A DNA stretch of 42,793 bases from an uncultured Bacteroidia bacterium (GTDB taxonomy: Bacteria; Bacteroidota; Bacteroidia; Bacteroidales; F082): NCBI GenBank assembly GCA_902799345.1, contig CADBZW010000033.1, positions 5,712 to 48,504 on the forward strand, written 5' to 3'. Below, piece after piece: positions 1,029-36,475 of the stretch (within the stretch, counting starts at the first letter, position 1; each line of letters begins with the position of its first letter). Both the position numbers and the translations under genes were made by a program. The notes below the pieces were generated by a model, which had not been told where the DNA came from, searched no databases, and worked only from the letters and a program-made list of their open reading frames with translations.

Positions 1029-3224
1029 ATGAAAAACAGACTTTTAACCACCAGTTTACTTCTTCTTGCCGTGATGGGCGTGCTGTTTGCCTCGTGCAAG
1101 AAAGAATACCCCCAACCGCCTATCCAGAACCTGCCGATAGGAACGGTTTACACAATCCAAGACATCTTGGCCATGACGCCAGGTACGGTGTTCGACTCCG
1201 CCTCGGTGTATGGCATCGTCACTGCCGACGAGGTGTCGGGCAACCTTTACAAGGTGATCTTCATCCAAGACCGCGCCTCGGGTGCCGCCATCGAGTTGAA
1301 GCTGAACGCCACCTCGGGCGTGCGCATCGGCGACTCCATCCGCGTCTATCTGAAGGATGCGATTTTCGACAAATACCACAACCTGCCGCAGCTGAGTGGC
1401 TTTGGTCCTGACGGTCACATCATTATCCTTGCCAACGACCGTCCTATCGAGCCCGCTTTGACGACCATCGCCGGCATCAAGGGTGGACAGTATCTGTGTG
1501 GCTTGGTGCGCCTCGAGGATGTCAGCTTCACGCAAACCGGTACCTTTGCTGAGATTTCGGAGTCGGGCAACCGCTATCTTGTGGATGCCACCAGCCCCAA
1601 CAACGACGACAATTTCGTGGTTCGTACCAGCAACTACGCCAACTTCGCTTACGACAACCTGCCGGAAGGCCCTGGCAGCCTCGTGGGCATCGCCACGGTC
1701 TACAACAGCACTTGGCAAATCATCATCCGTTCGAAGGGTGAGATGCAATTTGATAACTGGGATCCCACACCCACACCGCCCGTCGTTCCTGGCGAAGTTC
1801 AGAGCTTGCCCTACACACAGTCGTTCTCAACGGGCTTCGGCACCTATATGTCGTACAGCGTTGTCGATGACAACCATGTGTGGACGTATGAAAGTACCTA
1901 TAGCGTCGTTCAGATGACGGGTCATGTCGGAGGCAACCCGGGTGAGGACTTCGCCAATGAAGACTGGCTGATTTCTTCGCCTGTGGCTCTCACGGGCGTC
2001 AGCGATGCCAAGATGACGATGAGGTATCTCGGCCGTTATTTCAACAACATCAATAATGATGTTACCGTTTGGGTGTCGACTAACTACACCTACGGTGAGA
2101 ATCCTACCACGGCGCAATGGACGCAGCTGCCCGCCAACCTGGTGGAAAGCACCACCTGGAGCGACTTTAAGGACGTCGAGCTGGCCTTGACTGACTATGT
2201 CGGCCAAACGATTACGGTGGCTGTGAAATACCTGTCGACCGACACGAAAGGCGGCACCATCGAGGTGTCGGCTATCACCGTTGAAGAGGGCACGGCAGGT
2301 GATACACCTACGCCTCCCACGCCGGGAGAGGGCGAAGGTAGTGGCACTGCCGATGACCCGTATAATGTGGCCGCTGGTATTGGCCTGCAGAGCGAAGAAC
2401 CCATCGCATGGGTGCATGGCTATATCGTCGGTGCCGTGAAGTCGGGCCTTAGCTCGGTCACGGGCAACGCGGACATCAACTGGGCTGGTCCGTTCGACCT
2501 GGCCACCAACGTGGTTATTGCCGACGATGCTTCTTGCAACGAAATCAGCCAGTGTATCATCGTCAACCTGCCTGCTGGCAAGCCTTTGCGCACACAAGTC
2601 AACCTGATGGACAACCCTGACAATCTGGGCAAGCATCTGGCTGTGAACGGAAAGCTTCGTTCCTATTTCGGTCAGGCGGGTCTCCGCGACAGCGGCGGCA
2701 CCGAGGCCGATTTCGTGTTGGAAGGCGGCGTGACGCCTCCTCCGACACCTGGGACGACCATCTTCTCTGAGACATTTGCTTCTGGTCAAGGTGAATTTAC
2801 CATCCAAGACGTCACTTTGCCCGAGGAATTGACCTACGTTTGGAATCATGATGCCAACTATAGCTGCATGAAAGCCAGCGCCTACGTCGGTCAGGCTTAC
2901 GCCACCGAGAGCTGGCTGGTTTCGCCCGCCATCGCATTGACGAATGCCGCCACGCTGAAGTTCGACCAAGCCGTCAACTATGCCTCTCCTGATGGTGCTT
3001 TGGCTGTGATGGTTTCGACCAACTACAACGGCGATGTCAACACTGCCACATGGACGGAGCTGAGCCTCAGCCAATGGCCCGCTGGCAACAACTGGACCTT
3101 TATCAACTCCACCGCCGATTTGAGCAACTATGCTGGCCAATCGGTGACTATCGCTTTCAAGTACACGAGTACAACGAGTGCTTCCGCCACTTGGGAAGTG
3201 AAGAACTTCGTGGTGGAAGAGTAA
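1029..3224 (+). CDS. DUF5689 / choice-of-anchor J surface lipoprotein
   Basis: A 731-residue exported lipoprotein. The N-terminus is a type II signal peptide with lipobox FASC (Cys23), followed by KKEYPQPP. Residues ~35-240 look like DUF5689, an OB-like domain found in Bacteroidota surface proteins. About 255-425 and 580-731 are two related beta-sandwich domains of the choice-of-anchor J type (motifs ESTYS..EDFANEDWLISSP and ATESWLVSPAIAL). Between them (~437-575) is a second OB-like domain resembling DUF6359 (GTADDPYNVAAG start). Pro/Thr/Gly-rich linkers separate the domains. It probably sits on the outer surface and acts with the upstream TonB receptor; the ligand is unknown. No catalytic motif is evident. 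Confidence 0.85.
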   Translation: MKNRLLTTSLLLLAVMGVLFASCKKEYPQPPIQNLPIGTVYTIQDILAMTPGTVFDSASVYGIVTADEVSGNLYKVIFIQDRASGAAIELKLNATSGVRIGDSIRVYLKDAIFDKYHNLPQLSGFGPDGHIIILANDRPIEPALTTIAGIKGGQYLCGLVRLEDVSFTQTGTFAEISESGNRYLVDATSPNNDDNFVVRTSNYANFAYDNLPEGPGSLVGIATVYNSTWQIIIRSKGEMQFDNWDPTPTPPVVPGEVQSLPYTQSFSTGFGTYMSYSVVDDNHVWTYESTYSVVQMTGHVGGNPGEDFANEDWLISSPVALTGVSDAKMTMRYLGRYFNNINNDVTVWVSTNYTYGENPTTAQWTQLPANLVESTTWSDFKDVELALTDYVGQTITVAVKYLSTDTKGGTIEVSAITVEEGTAGDTPTPPTPGEGEGSGTADDPYNVAAGIGLQSEEPIAWVHGYIVGAVKSGLSSVTGNADINWAGPFDLATNVVIADDASCNEISQCIIVNLPAGKPLRTQVNLMDNPDNLGKHLAVNGKLRSYFGQAGLRDSGGTEADFVLEGGVTPPPTPGTTIFSETFASGQGEFTIQDVTLPEELTYVWNHDANYSCMKASAYVGQAYATESWLVSPAIALTNAATLKFDQAVNYASPDGALAVMVSTNYNGDVNTATWTELSLSQWPAGNNWTFINSTADLSNYAGQSVTIAFKYTSTTSASATWEVKNFVVEE

Positions 3225-3244
3225 AACATTACGAAATGCAATAG

Positions 3245-3273
3245 AAAAGCCTGCCTTCGGGCGGGCTTTTTTG
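3245..3273 (+). terminator. Rho-independent terminator after the lipoprotein gene
   Basis: The stem AAGCCTGCC / GGCGGGCTT (one G-T pair) with a TTCG tetraloop is followed by a T run. It begins about 20 bp after the stop codon at 3224. Confidence 0.9.
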
Positions 3274-3277
3274 TGTC

Positions 3278-3378
3278 TATACCTTGTCCAAATCGTGCAA
3301 AAAAATCAAGATTTGGAAGCACTATAGCCTATACTTGCTCCAAATCATCAAAAAATTATGAGATTTGGAGCAAGTATA
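3278..3378. repeat. Two tandem 49-bp palindromes upstream of ATPase/nuclease gene 1
   Basis: Unit one is 3278-3326 and unit two 3330-3378, separated by 3 bp. Unit two has perfect 17-bp arms, TATACTTGCTCCAAATC and its complement GATTTGGAGCAAGTATA, around a 15-bp loop. Unit one keeps the inner core CCAAATC/GATTTGG and the outer TATA/TATA, with mismatches between. The right arm of unit two ends 24 bp before the -7 box at 3403, so it abuts the -33 region. Matching units follow the gene at 4888-4988. Confidence 0.95.
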
Positions 3379-3402
3379 AGGGTGTTTTTTCGGAAAAAGA
3401 CG

Positions 3403-3410
3403 TATCTTTG
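3403..3410 (+). promoter_or_regulatory. Bacteroidota -7 box (TATCTTTG) for ATPase/nuclease gene 1
   Basis: TATCTTTG matches the TAnnTTTG consensus and lies 25 bp before the ATG at 3436. The palindrome arm next to its upstream side suggests that a palindrome-binding protein could control this promoter. Confidence 0.75.
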
Positions 3411-3435
3411 CAGCCTGAAACAAAAGAGTAAAGTC

Positions 3436-4881
3436 ATGAAAGACAATAGAATCATCGGAAGGAAGTACGAACAGCAACTGCTTGCGTCGATTTGCGAACA
3501 GCGCGAAGCCCGCATGGTGGCGGTGTATGGTCGCCGTAGGGTGGGGAAGACGTTCCTGATAAAGGAGTTTTTCCACAACAAGTTCGATTTTATGTTTACG
3601 GGCAGTTACGAAGCCCCGATGCAGGTGCAACTCGCTTTTTTCCAAAGGGAACTGCGGAAACATTCTGGCCAAAACCGTCGGCGTCCGGCCAACTGGTTTG
3701 AGGCTTTCGAGCAGTTGCAGGACTATTTGGAAGGCTTGCGAAAGGAACGCCTCGTCGTCTTTTTCGATGAGTTGCCTTGGATGGATACGCCCAAATCGAA
3801 GTTCCTGACGGCGTTCAGCTATTTCTGGAATTCTTGGGCTTCCACCCGCGACGGGCTGAAACTCTTCATCTGCGGCAGTTCCACTTCGTGGATGATGAAC
3901 AAGGTCATCGGTGATAAGGGCGGACTCTACAACCGTTGCTCGCGCACCATCTATCTTGCTCCGTTTACGTTGGGCGAAGTGGAGGAACAACTGAAACGAA
4001 AGGGCATCGTCTGGACGCGCTACCAAATCACTGAGGCATACATGATTTTCGGCGGCATACCTTATTATATTGACATGCTTGACAAGGACTTGACCTTTGC
4101 CCAAAACATCGACCGATTGTTTTTTGCCCAAGGCGCACCATTGCGCACGGAATACGACTTTTTGTTCCGCTCGCTGTTCAAGGATTCTACGTTGGCACGT
4201 CAAGTGGTTGAGGAATTGGTCGGCAACGGGAAAGGAATGACGCAACAGGAATTGAAAGAAACGCTCAAGTTATCGTCAGGCGGGGCGTTGACCAAGGTGC
4301 TGAAAGAGCTGCAACAATGCGATTTCATCAGGTCGTATTCCTCGATGGGCAGGAAGTCGAAGGGGATGCTGTATCAACTCATCGACCTTTTCACGCTCTT
4401 TCATCTGCGTTTCGTGGCCAAACATTCCAGCCAGGACGAACAGTATTGGAGCAACCTCGACGAACACACTCACGATGCTTGGGCCGGATACGCCTTCGAG
4501 CGTGTATGTTTGCATCATATTCCGCAGATTAAGAAGAAGTTGGGAATTTCAGGCGTGTTGACCAACGCCTACGGCTGGAGCACGAAACCCATGATAGACG
4601 AGGATGAGACCGAGTGGGAAGGCGCACAAATCGACCTGCTCTTGAGTCGCGCCGATGATGTGATCAATATTTGCGAGATGAAATACAGCAAATATTCCTA
4701 CACCATCACCGACGATTACAGCAAACGCCTGAGAACCAAGATGTCAGTCTTTCGCCACCACACAAAAACCAAGTTCGCGCTTCACCTGACCTTTATCACG
4801 ACCTTTGGTCTCACCCACAATAAATATTGGAACATGGCGCAAAGTGAAGTGGTGATGGACGACTTGTTCAAGTTGTCATAA
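3436..4881 (+). CDS. AAA+ ATPase with C-terminal DUF234-type PD-(D/E)XK nuclease-like domain
   Basis: A 481-residue protein. The start at 3436 is chosen because it follows the -7 box and gives MKDNRIIGRK, matching the beginning of its paralogue at 32628; upstream starts would lie inside the promoter and palindrome. The P-loop GRRRVGKTF is at residues ~32-40 and Walker B VVFFDELPW at ~107-115, both typical of archaeal-type ATPases (PF01637-like). A winged-helix region around 255-310 (LKLSSGGALTKVLKEL) could bind DNA. The C-terminal part has Asp400 in QIDLLLSR, then Glu414 and Lys416 in CEMKYS, the pattern of a PD-(D/E)XK nuclease and of DUF234. The biological role of this family is not settled. 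The gene is bracketed by 49-bp palindromes, the downstream pair starting 6 bp after its stop codon, so gene and palindromes look like one unit. Confidence 0.85.
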   Translation: MKDNRIIGRKYEQQLLASICEQREARMVAVYGRRRVGKTFLIKEFFHNKFDFMFTGSYEAPMQVQLAFFQRELRKHSGQNRRRPANWFEAFEQLQDYLEGLRKERLVVFFDELPWMDTPKSKFLTAFSYFWNSWASTRDGLKLFICGSSTSWMMNKVIGDKGGLYNRCSRTIYLAPFTLGEVEEQLKRKGIVWTRYQITEAYMIFGGIPYYIDMLDKDLTFAQNIDRLFFAQGAPLRTEYDFLFRSLFKDSTLARQVVEELVGNGKGMTQQELKETLKLSSGGALTKVLKELQQCDFIRSYSSMGRKSKGMLYQLIDLFTLFHLRFVAKHSSQDEQYWSNLDEHTHDAWAGYAFERVCLHHIPQIKKKLGISGVLTNAYGWSTKPMIDEDETEWEGAQIDLLLSRADDVINICEMKYSKYSYTITDDYSKRLRTKMSVFRHHTKTKFALHLTFITTFGLTHNKYWNMAQSEVVMDDLFKLS

Positions 4882-4887
4882 AATGCC

Positions 4888-4988
4888 TATACTTGCTCCA
4901 AATCTCGCAAAAATGATGAGATTTGGAAGTACTATAGCTTATACTTTCTCCAAATCTATGAAAAAAATCGAGATTTGGATGCATTATA
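4888..4988. repeat. Two tandem 49-bp palindromes downstream of ATPase/nuclease gene 1
   Basis: Units at 4888-4936 and 4940-4988, again 49 bp each with a 3-bp spacer, repeat the upstream architecture. The left arm of the first is identical to TATACTTGCTCCAAATC; its right arm is GATTTGGAAGTACTATA. The second is TATACTTTCTCCAAATC with GATTTGGATGCATTATA. The arms are slightly less perfect than in the 3330-3378 unit. They may also form hairpins in the mRNA 3' end. Confidence 0.93.
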
Positions 4989-31572: not shown

Positions 31573-31998
31573 ATGGGTAAATTTATGCAAGAATTCAAGG
31601 AGTTTGCCATGAAGGGCAACGTCATGGACATGGCTGTCGGTGTGGTCATCGGCGGCGCGTTCGGTAAAATCGTCTCCTCATTGGTGTCCGACATCATCAT
31701 GCCGCTCATCGGTGCCATCACGGGTGGTCTCAACTTCACCGACTGGAAGTGGGTCATCCGCGAAGCCGTCATGGATGGCGAGACCGTGGTGAAGCCCGAG
31801 CTGTGTATGACTTGGGGCAACTTCCTGCAAGTCGTCTTCGACTTCATCATCATCGCCTTCTCGATCTTCCTGGTCATCAAGGGCATCAACAAGCTGAAGA
31901 GACAACCTGAGTCGGAGCCAGAGGCACCTGCCGCTCCCGCCGGCCCGACGCAAGAGGAACTCCTCGCCGAAATCCGCGATTTGCTGAAGAACAAGTAA
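31573..31998 (+). CDS. mscL: Large-conductance mechanosensitive channel
   Basis: A 141-residue inner-membrane channel that opens under membrane tension to release solutes after hypo-osmotic shock. The N-terminal helix [20 protein letters not shown] and the pore helix [20 protein letters not shown] are classical MscL; the second helix is [23 protein letters not shown], and a Glu/Pro-rich linker leads to the C-terminal bundle helix [17 protein letters not shown]. It has its own promoter and terminator. Confidence 0.96.
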
Positions 31999-32024: not shown

Positions 32025-32057
32025 AGGGCGCACCTGATTGGGTGCGCCTTGTTTTGT
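32025..32057 (+). terminator. Terminator after mscL
   Basis: GGCGCACC pairs with GGTGCGCC, followed by TTGTTTTGT. Confidence 0.85.
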
Positions 32058-32060
32058 GTT

Positions 32061-32129
32061 ATTACTTGGAATGAACGCATTGATTTACCCAGCGACACCA
32101 TCTATGAATATGGCGTGCCGCTCAACTAA
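32061..32129 (+). pseudogene. Possible 3' end of a lost gene
   Basis: The frame reads ITWNERIDLPSDTIYEYGVP and then LN and a stop, with the terminator of mscL immediately before it. It looks like the end of a coding sequence whose body is missing. No family is recognised; this is a weak call. Confidence 0.3.
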
Positions 32130-32321
32130 ATACACAACCAAAAAACTGAATTCTAGAAAAATAGGAATATAACTGACAAATAATTAAAACACTGAGCTTT
32201 ACGCTCTTTTTCTCTCCGCTGAAAACTGGACACTTTCAATGGTAAGTGAGAATAAGTGCAATAAGTTCACGCCTAATGGCGTGGACTTTTTGTGCTTGCC
32301 TACTTATCTTGGTCGTCCAGT
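32130..32321. other. Non-coding stretch with one terminator-like hairpin
   Basis: No gene is seen. CACGCC/GGCGTG with flanking AAGT/ACTT and a T run at about 32262-32291 forms a terminator-like hairpin. The rest is AT-rich without recognisable features. Confidence 0.6.
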
Positions 32322-32512
32322 AAATTTCGGAACGGCCTTACCTCATCACAAAGGCGGAATGGGATAAGATTGAAACACGTTTGAGCGAGGTGCAAAATTA
32401 CTTCAAACGTAAGACTTTGTTTTTTGCAATGGTGACTTCTAACGGACTTGTAAAGAACAAATATTCAATCAATTATATTCGACAAGAAATCACTTTAGAT
32501 GATTTATTTTGA
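32322..32512 (+). pseudogene. 3' relic of a second ATPase/nuclease copy
   Basis: This 191-bp stretch matches the last part of the gene at 32628-34022, offset by exactly 1510 bp at the stop codon, with about 9 differences by eye (roughly 95% identity). It starts abruptly at AAATTTCGG and ends with the same TGA. It encodes the region after the CEMKFS nuclease motif up to LDDLF. The palindrome family that follows it also follows the intact gene. Confidence 0.92.
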
Positions 32513-32513
32513 T

Positions 32514-32581
32514 ATTATTTTTGGCTATCTGACCATAAAAATGCACTCAAATAGCCAAAAATAATCATCATTTTTGGCTAT
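32514..32581. repeat. Palindrome upstream of ATPase/nuclease gene 2, plus extra arm
   Basis: Perfect 15-bp arms ATTATTTTTGGCTAT (32514-32528) and ATAGCCAAAAATAAT (32551-32565) surround a 22-bp loop, 1 bp after the relic's stop codon. An additional direct arm ATTTTTGGCTAT lies at 32570-32581, 15 bp before the -7 box at 32597, so it covers the -33 region. The intact gene is followed by the same palindrome at 34024-34075. Confidence 0.95.
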
Positions 32582-32596
32582 CTAATGAAAAAATCC

Positions 32597-32604
32597 TACC
32601 TTTG
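32597..32604 (+). promoter_or_regulatory. -7 box (TACCTTTG) for ATPase/nuclease gene 2
   Basis: TACCTTTG followed by CAG is 23 bp before the ATG at 32628, downstream of the palindrome arms. Confidence 0.75.
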
Positions 32605-32627
32605 CAGCCAGAAATAATTCTGAAGCA

Positions 32628-34022
32628 ATGCAAATAATAGGCAGAAAAGAAGAAATAAAAGAACTGCAAAGAATCTATGATTCAACGAGTTCGGAATTTG
32701 TGGTGGTCTATGGCCGCCGCAGGGTAGGGAAGACCTATCTCGTCAGGGAGTTCTTCCAAGATAATTTTGTGTATTATGCTACAGGGGTGGCGCGTGGCAA
32801 CCGGAAAGAACAATTGGCCCATTTCCATAATAGACTGATTCGTTATGGCTCGCCTGACGAACAAGCCGTGCCCTACAATTGGTTTGAGGCGTTTGAACGG
32901 CTTGAGGCCTTGGTCGCGAAATCAAAAAAGAAGCGGAAAGTGATTTTTCTGGATGAGTTACCGTGGATGGATACGCAGAAATCCGAGTTTCTGAAGGCCT
33001 TGGAACTGTTTTGGAACGAATGGGCTTCGGCACGCAACGACATTGTGCTTGTGGTGTGTGGCTCTGCAGCCTCGTGGATGGTCAACAAGGTCATCAATAA
33101 TCACGGTGGGTTGCATAACCGCTTGACTTGCAAGATGAAACTGCTGCCGTTTACCTTGTCTGAGACCAAGGAATATCTTGAAAGCCAAAAGTTTAAGTGG
33201 GATAATATGAGTGTGGCGGAGTGCTATATGATTCTCGGTGGCATACCTTATTATTTGCATCTGCTTGACAAGAGCCGAAGCCTGGCCCAAAATGTAGACA
33301 GGCTTTTCTTCGCAGAATCGGCACTTCTGGCTGACGAGTTCGACAATCTTTATAATTCACTTTTCTCGAAATCAGAGGATTATGTTCGCATCGTGGAAAC
33401 CTTGTCAAAGAAGAAGTCGGGCTATACTCGCGATGAGATTGCCAAAGGCTCCAAGCTGAGCAATGGCGGCGGCTTGACGCGGAAACTCATTGCTCTTGAA
33501 CAGTGCGGTTTTATTCGGAAATACAAGACCATCGGGGAGGTGCCTTATCTTTATCAGCTTTCGGACAGCTTCACCTTGTTTTATTTCCAGTTCCTGAAAA
33601 ACGGTGCGTATTCCGACCATGAGACATGGATGCATTTGCTGACGACAAGCACTTGCACTACATGGCGAGGCTTGGCTTTTGAAAGATTGTGTTTTGCTCA
33701 TTTACAACAGATTAAACAGAAATTAGGCATCTCTGGCATCCTTACCAAAACCTGCTCTTATTATTCAGGACAAGCCCAGGTTGATATGGTTATCGATCGT
33801 GCAGACCGAGCTGTTACGGTGTGCGAGATGAAATTTTCGGAGCGGCCTTACCTCATCACAAAGGCGGAATGGGATAAGATTGAAACACGATTGAGCGAGG
33901 TGCAAAATTACTTCAAGCGTAAGACTTTGTTTTTTGCAATGGTTACTTCAAATGGCCTTGTAAAGAACAAATATTCAATCAATTATGTTCGACAAGAAAT
34001 TACTTTAGATGATTTATTTTGA
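32628..34022 (+). CDS. AAA+ ATPase with C-terminal DUF234-type PD-(D/E)XK nuclease-like domain (paralogue 2)
   Basis: A 464-residue paralogue of the protein at 3436-4881. Walker A is GRRRVGKTY (about 29-37) and Walker B VIFLDELPWMDT (about 105-116); the motif GGIPYYLHLLDKS is shared. A winged-helix segment (AKGSKLSNGGGLTRKLIALE) precedes the C-terminal domain, where Asp386 (QVDMVID), Glu400 and Lys402 (CEMKFS) have the same spacing as Asp400, Glu414 and Lys416 in the first copy. The gene is flanked by its own palindrome family, with the downstream one starting 1 bp after the stop codon. A relic of a sister gene lies upstream. Function is unknown. Confidence 0.87.
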   Translation: MQIIGRKEEIKELQRIYDSTSSEFVVVYGRRRVGKTYLVREFFQDNFVYYATGVARGNRKEQLAHFHNRLIRYGSPDEQAVPYNWFEAFERLEALVAKSKKKRKVIFLDELPWMDTQKSEFLKALELFWNEWASARNDIVLVVCGSAASWMVNKVINNHGGLHNRLTCKMKLLPFTLSETKEYLESQKFKWDNMSVAECYMILGGIPYYLHLLDKSRSLAQNVDRLFFAESALLADEFDNLYNSLFSKSEDYVRIVETLSKKKSGYTRDEIAKGSKLSNGGGLTRKLIALEQCGFIRKYKTIGEVPYLYQLSDSFTLFYFQFLKNGAYSDHETWMHLLTTSTCTTWRGLAFERLCFAHLQQIKQKLGISGILTKTCSYYSGQAQVDMVIDRADRAVTVCEMKFSERPYLITKAEWDKIETRLSEVQNYFKRKTLFFAMVTSNGLVKNKYSINYVRQEITLDDLF

Positions 34023-34023
34023 T

Positions 34024-34075
34024 ATTATTTTTGGCTATCTGACCATAAAAATGCATCCAAATAGCCAAAAATAAT
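34024..34075. repeat. Palindrome downstream of ATPase/nuclease gene 2
   Basis: ATTATTTTTGGCTAT (34024-34038) and ATAGCCAAAAATAAT (34061-34075), with a 22-bp loop differing at two positions from that of the upstream copy (32514-32565). It begins 1 bp after the TGA. Confidence 0.95.
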
Positions 34076-34114
34076 CCATTTTTCTGAATTTTTCGCTGTT
34101 TCCCCAAAAAACAC

Positions 34115-34138: not shown

Positions 34139-36475
34139 ATGAATAGTAGAACGCACATAGATTCGCTTCAGATTTTGAAGGCATGTCATACCGAACGACG
34201 GAGGAGAGATCGTATCTGTGCCTTCAAAATCCTCGGAATGACATGTGCGTTCCTCTTCTGCTTCGTCCTCTCCGCCAAGGCCACGCACCAGCGTGCGGCA
34301 GAAATCACATACGCATGGGTGGGCGGCAATGCCTACGAGATTACGCTGACGACCTACAATGTCCCTAACGCGGCTTGGGAACAACGCGACTCCCTGCTGG
34401 TGCTTTGGGGCGACGGCGCCGAGGAATTTATCCCTCGCATCGCATGGTCGAACATGGGCGACAACTGCATCAAGAACACCTATCGTCAGACCCATAACTA
34501 CGCTACCCCAGGCACCTACGTCATCAGCATGGAGGACGCCAACCGCAACTACGGCGTGGTCAACGTGCCCAACTCGGTGACGGTGCCGATGTATATCGAG
34601 ACGGAACTGGTCATCAACCCGTTTATGGGCTACAACAACTCGGTGCAGCTGCTCAACGCGCCTGTCGACAAGGCCTGCGTGGGCAAGCTGTTCATCCACA
34701 ACCCCTCGGCCTACGACCCCGACGGCGACAGCCTGAGCTACCGCCTGCTGCCTTGCAAGGGCATGAATGGCATGGAGATTCCCGGGTATAGCTATCCCCA
34801 AGCCTCGCAAGCCTTCGAAATCGACCCCGTCACGGGCGACCTGCGCTGGGAGAACCCCGTGCTGCAAGGCGAATACAACGTGGCGTTCATCATCGAGGAA
34901 TGGCGCCATGGCGTGAAGATTGGCTCCGTCATCCGCGACATGCAGATCCTCGTCTCGGCATGCAGCAACAACGTGCCTAACATCAATTGCAACGACGAGT
35001 ATTGCCTCGTGGCGGGCGAACAGCTCGACTTCGTCATCTCCGCCTCCGACCCCGATGGCGACAACGTCACCTTGACGGCCTCGGGTGCGCCTTTCGAGGT
35101 GGCGGTGAGTCCGGCCACACTGACCCCCGAGTCGGCCTATGGCTTGCAGCCTCAGATGGAGTTCCTTTGGAACACCGTCAACGCCCATATCCGCAACACG
35201 CCCTATCAGGTGGTGATTCACGCCAAGGACGACAGTGAGCCTATCAGCCTGACCAATGTCAAGACGGTGACGATTAAAGTGATGGGACCCAAGCCCCAGA
35301 CCCTTGTCGCCGAGATGCATGGGCACGACGCCACCTTGTCGTGGGCTCATTATCAATGTCCCAACGCCGTGGCTTTATTGGTCTACCGCAAGGCAGGCTG
35401 CGACGGCTACGAACCCGACTTCTGCGAGACGGGCATCCGCGACGGCTATCAGCTGATGGCGACGTTGGATCCCTCGGCGACCACCTATACCGACCACGAC
35501 CTCCCACCAGGCATGGCCTACGAATACCGCGTCGTGGCCCGTTTCCCCGACGGCGCCATGAGCATCGTCAGCGACCCGGCCTGTGTGACCCTGAAAAACG
35601 ACAGCCCGCTGATGACCCATGTCACCAACGACAGCATCGACCTCGAGTCGGGGCAGGTCAGGGCCTGTTGGACCCAGCCGAAAGAGATCGACGAACAATA
35701 CGTAGCGCCCTTCAGCTATGCCTTGACCCGCATTCTCGAAGGTGAGACCGCCGTCGTTTACGAAGGTGCCGACACCACCTTCCTTGACGCCAATGTGGAC
35801 TTGGCGGCAGTGACGTCGTTAGTATATAAGGTGGAGATGCGTGATGCCACCCATCAGCTGATGGGCACGAGTGCCACGGCATCGGCGGTGCTGCTCACGG
35901 CGAACGGCGCCAATAACGAAGCCAGTCTCTCGTGGACGGAGGAGGTGCCATGGCTCGTCGACAGCACCCAGGTGTTTAAAGAGGTGGAGAACCACTTTGT
36001 CAGGATTGCTTCGGTGACGGGCTTTGCCTACACCGACACCGACGTGGAGGCCGACGCCACCTATCGTTATTATGTCCGCACCTTTGGCCATTACACTCTC
36101 GAAGGCGTCATGCGGCCTTTGGTCAACTATTCCGCCATCAAGACGGTGCGTATCGGCCATGAGGAGCCTGAGGAGGAGTTCTCGTACGTGTTGCCCAATG
36201 TCTTCACGCCCAACGGCGATGGTTTCAACGACGTTTTTGAACCTAAGGTGACGGGCTTGGACTTGATTACGGGAGCCAAAACGGTCATCTTCAACCGTTG
36301 GGGCAATATCCTTTGCGACACCGACGACCCGCTCATTCAGTGGGACGGTAAGAACAAGATGACGAAATTGGAATGCTCGCCAGGTACCTATTTCTATATT
36401 ACTGACATCACCTACATCGCCCCGACTGGCGAGGAGAAACTGCATTTGCAAGGTTCCATCACCATCGTCCGATAA
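34139..36475 (+). CDS. Large secreted protein with gliding-motility (CHU_C, T9SS type B) C-terminus
   Basis: A 778-residue exported protein. The likely start at 34139 gives an unusually long Arg-rich leader (HTERRRRDRICAF) before the hydrophobic core GMTCAFLFCFVLSAKA; an internal ATG at 34238 would give a normal short signal peptide. The leader DNA is a palindromic repeat (34171-34245). The body has Ig/PKD-like beta domains, with YDPDGDSLSYRLLP and SDPDGDNVTL motifs of the cadherin-like type, and fibronectin-like segments. The last ~90 residues (VLPNVFTPNGDGFNDVF, then IFNRWGN and GTYFYI) are the CHU_C domain, which targets proteins to the type IX system. It probably works at the cell surface as an adhesin or structural protein. 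Confidence 0.88.
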   Translation: MNSRTHIDSLQILKACHTERRRRDRICAFKILGMTCAFLFCFVLSAKATHQRAAEITYAWVGGNAYEITLTTYNVPNAAWEQRDSLLVLWGDGAEEFIPRIAWSNMGDNCIKNTYRQTHNYATPGTYVISMEDANRNYGVVNVPNSVTVPMYIETELVINPFMGYNNSVQLLNAPVDKACVGKLFIHNPSAYDPDGDSLSYRLLPCKGMNGMEIPGYSYPQASQAFEIDPVTGDLRWENPVLQGEYNVAFIIEEWRHGVKIGSVIRDMQILVSACSNNVPNINCNDEYCLVAGEQLDFVISASDPDGDNVTLTASGAPFEVAVSPATLTPESAYGLQPQMEFLWNTVNAHIRNTPYQVVIHAKDDSEPISLTNVKTVTIKVMGPKPQTLVAEMHGHDATLSWAHYQCPNAVALLVYRKAGCDGYEPDFCETGIRDGYQLMATLDPSATTYTDHDLPPGMAYEYRVVARFPDGAMSIVSDPACVTLKNDSPLMTHVTNDSIDLESGQVRACWTQPKEIDEQYVAPFSYALTRILEGETAVVYEGADTTFLDANVDLAAVTSLVYKVEMRDATHQLMGTSATASAVLLTANGANNEASLSWTEEVPWLVDSTQVFKEVENHFVRIASVTGFAYTDTDVEADATYRYYVRTFGHYTLEGVMRPLVNYSAIKTVRIGHEEPEEEFSYVLPNVFTPNGDGFNDVFEPKVTGLDLITGAKTVIFNRWGNILCDTDDPLIQWDGKNKMTKLECSPGTYFYITDITYIAPTGEEKLHLQGSITIVR
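34171..34245. repeat. Palindromic repeat inside the leader of the CHU_C protein gene
   Basis: GATTTTGAAGGCA (34171-34183) pairs with TGCCTTCAAAATC (34219-34231), and CATGTCATACCGA (34182-34194) pairs with TCGGAATGACATG (34233-34245, one mismatch). The pairs cross, so they are alternatives or a pseudoknot. Bases 34179-34196 are the exact complement of 7698-7715 in the convergent hairpin. Confidence 0.85.

Follow-up and report, generated by a model that had tools for sequence, protein, structure and literature searches.

IS200/IS605 elements are one-gene units with palindromic ends that encode an HUH transposase. PDC-S27 is a phage defence candidate of PADLOC in which an ATPase is fused to a PD-(D/E)XK domain (PMC12988326). 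Its candidacy rests on 'embedding' in defence islands, and the antiviral role is putative. According to the available parts of two surveys, 4562 bacterial and 3503 archaeal detections (PMC12988326) and 2865 detections in rumen genomes (PMC13356809) have been recorded, and the family is among the frequent candidate defence families. The word element 'palindrom' does not occur in the accessible main text of PMC12988326 and occurs three times in PMC13356809, all within the CRISPR name; the accessible portions mention neither bounding palindromes of PDC-S27 nor a mechanism. Among the matches listed in literature searches, no title describes a link between palindromes and an ATPase of this kind. 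Pairing of an ATPase gene with adjacent DNA sites is known from haloarchaeal Orc1/Cdc6, where, in the part of the study available, gene-adjacent sites resemble one another among proteins of one family (≥80% identity), and internal duplication is thought to be an unlikely source of the paralogues in one genome (PMC3528665).

The window analysed here, a stretch of 42,793 nucleotides from an uncultured Bacteroidia bacterium, carries two PDC-S27 genes, each accompanied by its own palindromes (Table 1). For the gene at 32628 and its relatives, we favour, as reasonably probable, a reading in which a single gene forms a mobile cassette and its protein recognises the palindromes at the cassette's ends. 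A palindrome-bounded PDC-S27 cassette with type-specific pairing appears to be new, as no description of it was found; PDC-S27 as a defence candidate was already known.

Table 1. Features of the PDC-S27 loci and their surroundings (positions are those of the window)
Feature	Position	Strand	Evidence or remark
PDC-S27-family gene, 464 aa	32628..34022	+	ATPase_2, PADLOC PDC-S27, invariant residues, AF2
Left palindrome, 15-bp perfect arms, 22-nt loop	32514..32565	.	
Right palindrome, arms and orientation identical to the left one	34024..34075	.	
Degenerate third palindrome of the left palindrome's family, straddling box TACCTTTG	32567..32618	+	arms by eye, ~11/13 matched
Box TACCTTTG within the third palindrome	32597-32604		
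Relic: 3' end (62 codons plus stop) of a diverged second copy of the intact gene's type	32322..32512	+	
Remnant: 3' end of a 95-aa ORF and region preceding a 91-aa ORF	32056..32321	+	joined to relic by deletion
mscL, left neighbour (site marker)	31573..31998	+	MscL 2.8e-46
CHU_C / type IX secretion-signal protein, right neighbour (site marker)	34139..36475	+	CHU_C 3.4e-15
First paralogue, PDC-S27, ~45% identical to the 32628 gene, own palindrome family	about 3436..4881	+	
Left palindrome of first paralogue, 17-bp arms TATACTTGCTCCAAATC	about 3330..3378	.	
Right palindrome array of first paralogue	about 4897..4979	.	

A preliminary description of this DNA had reported palindromes with perfect 15-bp arms on both sides of the 32628 gene, unrelated to those of the first paralogue, and a direct repeat of 'gene 3' end plus palindrome' around the intact gene. 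All three observations were confirmed. Both palindromes have perfect arms of the sequence ATTATTTTTGGCTAT, the palindromes of the first paralogue differ from them in sequence, and the direct repeat (32322-32566 and 33832-34076) extends over 245 nt at 95% identity with an offset of 1510 bp. The exact 15-mer arm (W at position 4) is present at four places in the 3.1-Mb genome, all of them at the locus of the 32628 gene. The spaced palindrome with exact 11-bp arms was found in 16/99 genomes of the genus and never exceeded two occurrences in one of them; a reversed control pattern was found in 0/99. By eye, the third palindrome straddles the promoter of the 32628 gene itself, and the box within it is presumably a −7 box of the Bacteroidota type. 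An 88-bp dispersed repeat at 34157-34244 occurs in this and in other genomes of the genus.

The window protein matches the PADLOC PDC-S27 profile over its full length (1.4e-189, residues 2-464), as do 43/43 aligned homologues. G29, G34, K35, T36, D109, E110, D386, E400 and K402 are invariant in the 43 aligned proteins; we read them as Walker A and B residues and, for D386, E400 and K402, as a nuclease motif of the PD-(D/E)XK type. Pfam assigned ATPase_2 (1.2e-20) and, weakly and under the cut-off, DUF234. No HUH (Y1) transposase was found in the window protein, the Pfam matches being to ATPase families and weakly to DUF234 only, with none in NCBIfam; nor was a transposase domain of any kind found with the Pfam, NCBIfam and PADLOC profiles. 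Searches of phage families and viral structures with the protein gave generic ATPase matches. The best PDB matches of the AlphaFold2 model (mean pLDDT 93.6) in Foldseek were the Pyrococcus Walker ATPase (2qen), STAND proteins and archaeal Cdc6/Orc1 (2qby, 8.4e-9). In a profile search, residues 247-316 weakly matched 1ku9 (E 0.0094), which we take to be a winged helix. The modelled helices at 268-275 and 281-292 and strands at 296-300 and 307-311 make the stretch 271-315 the helix-wing part of such a fold. The predicted domain order is thus an AAA+/STAND-type (ATPase_2) ATPase, a winged-helix-like middle (~247-316) and a PD-(D/E)XK-type nuclease.

The genome itself contains four full PDC-S27 copies. 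The other three are 45-48% identical to that of the window and each has its own palindromes; two remoter relatives (24-26% identical) have no palindromes of this kind. In 60 genomes of the genus, between 0 and 27 copies were counted per genome, and 39/60 had one or more at E ≤ 1e-60; among 198 genomes sampled from the order, 32 had a PDC-S27 match at E ≤ 1e-80. From 139 raw matches in the genus, 134 were retained. A short one (a truncated gene in G043) was removed, as were four that lack an ATG, namely two matches to the relic, one to a truncated G084 gene and the nearly full L150 copy. These gave 128 distinct copies, then 126 on removal of two truncated duplicates, and 122 with both flanks; from 98 matches in four genomes, three fragments were left out.

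In this genus set, a left palindrome (stem score ≥11) was detected at 110/122 copies and a right one at 71/122, leaving 51/122 without a strong right palindrome, and gene-internal control stretches reached this score in 0/122. Left and right flanks of one copy matched each other at ≥30 in 88/122 copies compared to 52/1500 random cross pairs, and at ≥50 in 77/122 compared to 14/1500. In a separate contig set, where 5/80 loci repeat proteins of the genus set, 74 loci had both flanks; 52 carried a left and 29 a right palindrome, and the left-right match reached ≥30 in 25/74 as against 17/1500 cross pairs. Thirty loci encoding DUF4143 (L382-L411, genomes G000 and G047) served as a control. Left palindromes were seen at 10/30 and right ones at 7/30 of them, with a left-right match ≥30 in 7/30 and ≥50 in 5/30. 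Given these 7/30 loci, DUF4143 is a weaker case and not a clean negative.

The box TANNTTTG is found in the 130 bp preceding the ATG in 169/196 copies, and after the stop codon in 43/196. Palindromes that straddle the promoter (score ≥9) are a minority, 27/171 compared to 11/855 in shuffled sequence. Mismatches in the stems are GU-type in 47 cases and AC-type in 48, so that wobble pairs show no gene-strand bias; this balance points to a DNA site and not to an RNA hairpin. Concerted evolution of the left and right palindromes was considered and dropped. In 48/68 pairs the similarity within a copy exceeded that between copies, a figure that is biased because the segments were picked by their left-right match; with unbiased segments the excess was weak (14 pairs; loops 0.75 within and 0.66 between, arms 0.83 and 0.85).

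Copies on plasmids and phages were also inspected. The PDC-S27 profile is matched by those of Segatella, Butyrivibrio, Emticicia and phage WO. Of six plasmid or phage copies examined, those of Segatella, Butyrivibrio and Emticicia have a palindrome on the left but no matching counterpart on the right, and the only palindrome of a Phocaeicola plasmid copy and of one faecal phage copy is a distant one at -259. In Wolbachia phage WO (L416, MN180249.1), the gene at 2989-4452 (PDC-S27 match 6.5e-179) has a head-tail preconnector gene on one side and a hypothetical gene on the other; near-palindromic CCGCGG arms are visible by eye around two TATAAT boxes before its start, where the automatic score is only 7.

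The palindrome varies with the type of the protein. With similarity counted at ≥0.5, among 111 copies kept for their left score ≥11, a choice that favours palindrome-bearing copies, palindromes were similar in 74/103 pairs with proteins above 80% identity, 2/10 at 70-80%, 2/34 at 60-70% and 8/5958 below 60%. The eight exceptions comprise two (0.96) in which the palindrome is that of a tandem neighbour and six at 0.50-0.54. The agreement above 80% identity, set against the 8/5958 below 60%, indicates that each gene type has its own palindrome. The earlier suggestion that gene and palindrome evolve together is strongly supported by these numbers, and palindromes of one family beside unrelated ATPase clades, which would have spoken against it, are confined to the same eight pairs.

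The region of the protein that follows the palindrome was sought with a test corrected for overall identity, in which pairs at ≥62% were left out and windows were compared with permutation maxima. In the genus set the peak fell on residues 271-315 (r 0.144-0.173; 99% of permutation maxima, 0.095), and 406-435 reached 0.096; a repeat run gave a winged-helix peak of 0.156 against a 99% level of 0.126. In the separate contig set (56 units) residues 277-300 ranked top at 0.199 (99%, 0.190), followed by 85-114 at 0.168-0.180 (95%, 0.167), and in the combined set of 104 units 277-300 was again top at 0.126 (99%, 0.126). When five shared proteins were removed from the separate set (52 units), an ATPase-domain window, 91-114, came top at 0.213 (99%, 0.212) and 277-300 third at 0.182, just under the 95% level of 0.188. 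In a dereplicated genus subset of 48 units, the winged-helix window gave 0.141 against a 95% level of 0.183, and 415-438 was top (0.178). From these sequence comparisons it is probable that the protein itself directly recognises its own palindrome. They suggest the winged helix as the likeliest reader, with a correlation that is uneven between sets.

Cassettes of one type sit at different intergenic places in different species. Among 113 same-type pairs, both flanks differ in 34, both are the same in 28, one side differs in 38 and one side could not be judged in 13. In example pairs with different flanks, homology starts and stops at or near the outer palindrome edges: from -92 to 61 in L093/L102 and from -93 to 58 in L003/L115, the palindromes spanning -92 to 60 in both. 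A DNA search with the L003 copy gave one match each in G022, G016, G089, G092 and G093, running from palindrome to palindrome within ~10 bp. In several clades without a right palindrome, homology stops near the stop codon, and the contexts of these clades differ too; two palindromes are therefore not required for relocation. A module of two co-transcribed genes of the toxin-antitoxin kind does not describe the unit, as there is one gene between the palindromes and homology runs from one palindrome to the other. No precise target-site duplication was found: the empty mscL sites have other terminators and are not alignable base for base, and extra sequence is present at the L003 site.

Multiplication within genomes was not seen. 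Apart from the relic, none of 834 within-genome copy pairs exceeded 70% identity (maximum 0.61) compared to 113/5271 pairs between genomes, a count in which near-identical copies, and to a lesser degree copies at 70-95%, may have escaped notice through the assembly of MAGs. The term 'selfish' used earlier for the unit is not borne out, since copies do not multiply within a genome and the family is catalogued as a defence candidate.

The turnover proposed for this site, on the other hand, is supported by related species, where filled, truncated, solo-palindrome and empty states all occur. Between mscL and the CHU_C gene, G064, G049 and G080 hold a full unit as the window does, G043 holds a truncated gene, G019, G012, G095, G016 and G044 a solo palindrome, and G028 a double palindrome without a gene; G085 (flanks ~94-96%) and others have no palindrome. 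In G064 and G019, filled and solo respectively, the immediate flanks match. At a second site, X-Y, palindromes without a gene are found in G018 (one), G022 (where a second one is degenerate) and G056, a truncated gene in G084, the flanks of which are 96% and 97.5% identical to those of G018, and a full unit in G081. GTTTTGAAATT precedes the solo palindrome of G018 at this site and matches the gene end of the close relative G084; this solo palindrome is thus a deletion scar. Palindrome-gene-palindrome in G055 (C5) corresponds to a single palindrome in G018 (C18), with a right flank of 94% and a left match of only ~30 bp. At the L002 site, G012, G084, G055 and G083 have solo palindromes and G057 a truncated gene; G018, G047, G086 and G041 have no palindrome, and homology resumes just outside it.

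Some further arrangements were noted at these and other sites. At two different sites (L073, L074, L075, L069, L083 and L081), the GGCTAT palindrome has as its immediate left neighbour a palindrome of a second family, by eye of the CCGCG-AAACG type. In G018 (C7) and G047 (C7), two PDC-S27 genes of different types are in tandem a few hundred bp apart (L174, L175), and at L175 the best palindrome detected in front of the second gene is the right palindrome of the first. In G049 (C6), L342 appears by eye to be what an internal deletion left of a PDC-S27 gene of another type, with a palindrome across the promoter; it lies at a hotspot where G022 and G055 carry a different type.

The relic upstream of the intact gene had been described as sharing its stop codon and differing from it at about nine positions, and had been taken for a sign that a related, non-identical copy entered or was swapped at the site. 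The TGA is indeed common to both over the 191 nt compared; the differences number 10/191, and lie in eight synonymous and two non-synonymous codons. This predominance of synonymous changes indicates that most of the divergence of the relic copy arose while it was a functional gene, ahead of its truncation. In the same comparison the intact gene differs from the G064 copy at 7/191 positions and the relic from the G064 copy at 12/191. The distance of the relic is comparable to that of another species' copy, which fits a related, non-identical copy better than a duplicate made recently at the site; 191 bp is too short for proof. Both a related immigrant and an old tandem copy are possible as its origin. 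None of the three other species with a full unit at this site has the relic.

The segment in front of the relic (32056-32321) is 87.6% identical to the intact gene neighbourhood of G016 (L073), where it lies between the 95-aa and 91-aa ORFs, and is colinear with G028 (L083). It joins the relic at about codon 402, with the junction at ~32322. Since both genomes place the segment in a gene neighbourhood, the left edge of the relic is attributed to a deletion, and since that neighbourhood joins the relic mid-gene, an earlier unit of the intact gene's type lay upstream and lost its front. An IS insertion behind this edge, considered because dispersed matches end at 32323, was ruled out by the same two neighbourhoods. 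Pfam gave no match for the 95-aa or the 91-aa ORF, and DUF4160 for the neighbouring ORF; DUF2442 and xre as identities of two ORFs of the neighbourhood were discarded, as only the DUF4160 assignment has Pfam support.

On the reading of a mobile cassette recognised by its own protein, the single gene would encode an ATPase of the Orc/STAND-like kind that also has a winged helix and a nuclease of the PD-(D/E)XK type, and the bounding palindrome would be the DNA site of that protein, bound most likely through the winged helix. Left palindromes lie against or across the promoter, by which the protein may control its own expression. The matching palindrome that in this genus usually lies just 3' of the gene would mark the cassette at both ends, and binding may bear on its movement. 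Decay by deletion would leave truncated genes, relics and solo palindromes, the relic of the window being the end of an earlier neighbouring copy whose front was deleted.

The palindromes could also be two operators of the encoded protein, perhaps looping the gene for tight repression, in a passive defence cassette that spreads by ordinary horizontal transfer and recombination; they would mark the ends since selection keeps operators while flanks drift. We give this account somewhat less than an even chance. The left palindromes at the promoter and the bias of TANNTTTG towards the start of the gene are in line with it, as are the Segatella, Butyrivibrio and Emticicia mobile copies, whose left palindrome lacks a match on the right, the distant or low-scoring palindromes of the Phocaeicola plasmid, faecal phage and phage WO copies, the presence of one copy per type per genome, and the cataloguing of the family as a defence candidate by PADLOC and in the available text of PMC12988326 and PMC13356809. 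However, it leaves an operator directly after the stop codon without explanation, and the filled/solo pair with matching flanks, together with the many locations, suggests a unit that is discrete and has defined ends. If the unit moved itself like REP/RAYT or IS200/IS605, the nuclease-ATPase acting on palindromic ends, perhaps as extruded hairpins, to move or copy the cassette, this would account for the palindromes at the ends, the boundaries of the cassette, the solo palindromes and the several sites per type. Such self-mobilisation is unlikely: no transposase domain was found, there is no amplification within genomes (near-identical copies may be hidden in MAGs), the exact window-type palindrome does not exceed two per genome, and types without a right palindrome relocate too. 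Similarly doubtful is the proposal that PDC-S27 genes are one-gene mobile elements without a known transposase, in which the Orc-like ATPase-nuclease reads clade-specific end palindromes, uses them both as operator and for excision/insertion, and keeps out any further copy of its type; were it true, 'embedding' in defence islands would partly reflect the mobility of PDC-S27.

The filled/solo pairs are explained equally well if solo palindromes are pre-existing targets and insertion of the unit duplicates the palindrome. The G018 solo at X-Y, however, is a deletion scar with gene-end sequence, and copies at other sites carry both palindromes, which makes this origin distinctly improbable. Some palindromes lie, by eye, right behind the terminator-like hairpin of the neighbouring gene, as might be expected of RNA hairpins acting as terminators or attenuators. 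This is highly improbable in view of the stem mismatches, which lack gene-strand bias, the AT-rich arms in the window and the co-variation of palindrome with protein type.

With a DNA target predicted for every protein from its palindromes, experiments can address binding, regulation, activation of the nuclease and mobility directly, and dozens of protein-site pairs form a natural data set. If the cassettes move themselves, the inference of defence from embedding needs correction for PDC-S27. By family, the window protein and all 43 homologues belong to PDC-S27, matching its profile and carrying the ATPase and PD-(D/E)XK residues. The closest working parallel is archaeal Orc1/Cdc6 with its origin recognition boxes. 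The likeness lies in the AAA+ fold and, by a weak profile match, the winged helix, and in gene-adjacent sites that co-vary with the protein in the PDC-S27 set too; PDC-S27 differs in its nuclease motif and in sites that often lie on both sides of the gene, within a relocating cassette. In comparison with IS200/IS605, the PDC-S27 protein matches no HUH transposase family and amplification within genomes is not seen. The closest architectural parallel is REP/RAYT with REPINs, in which, according to the part of the report available, palindromes are tied to a specific gene and solo palindromes occur (PMC3116915); REP/RAYT has a tyrosine transposase and genome-wide REPs, whereas PDC-S27 has an ATPase-nuclease and at most two exact window-type palindromes per genome.
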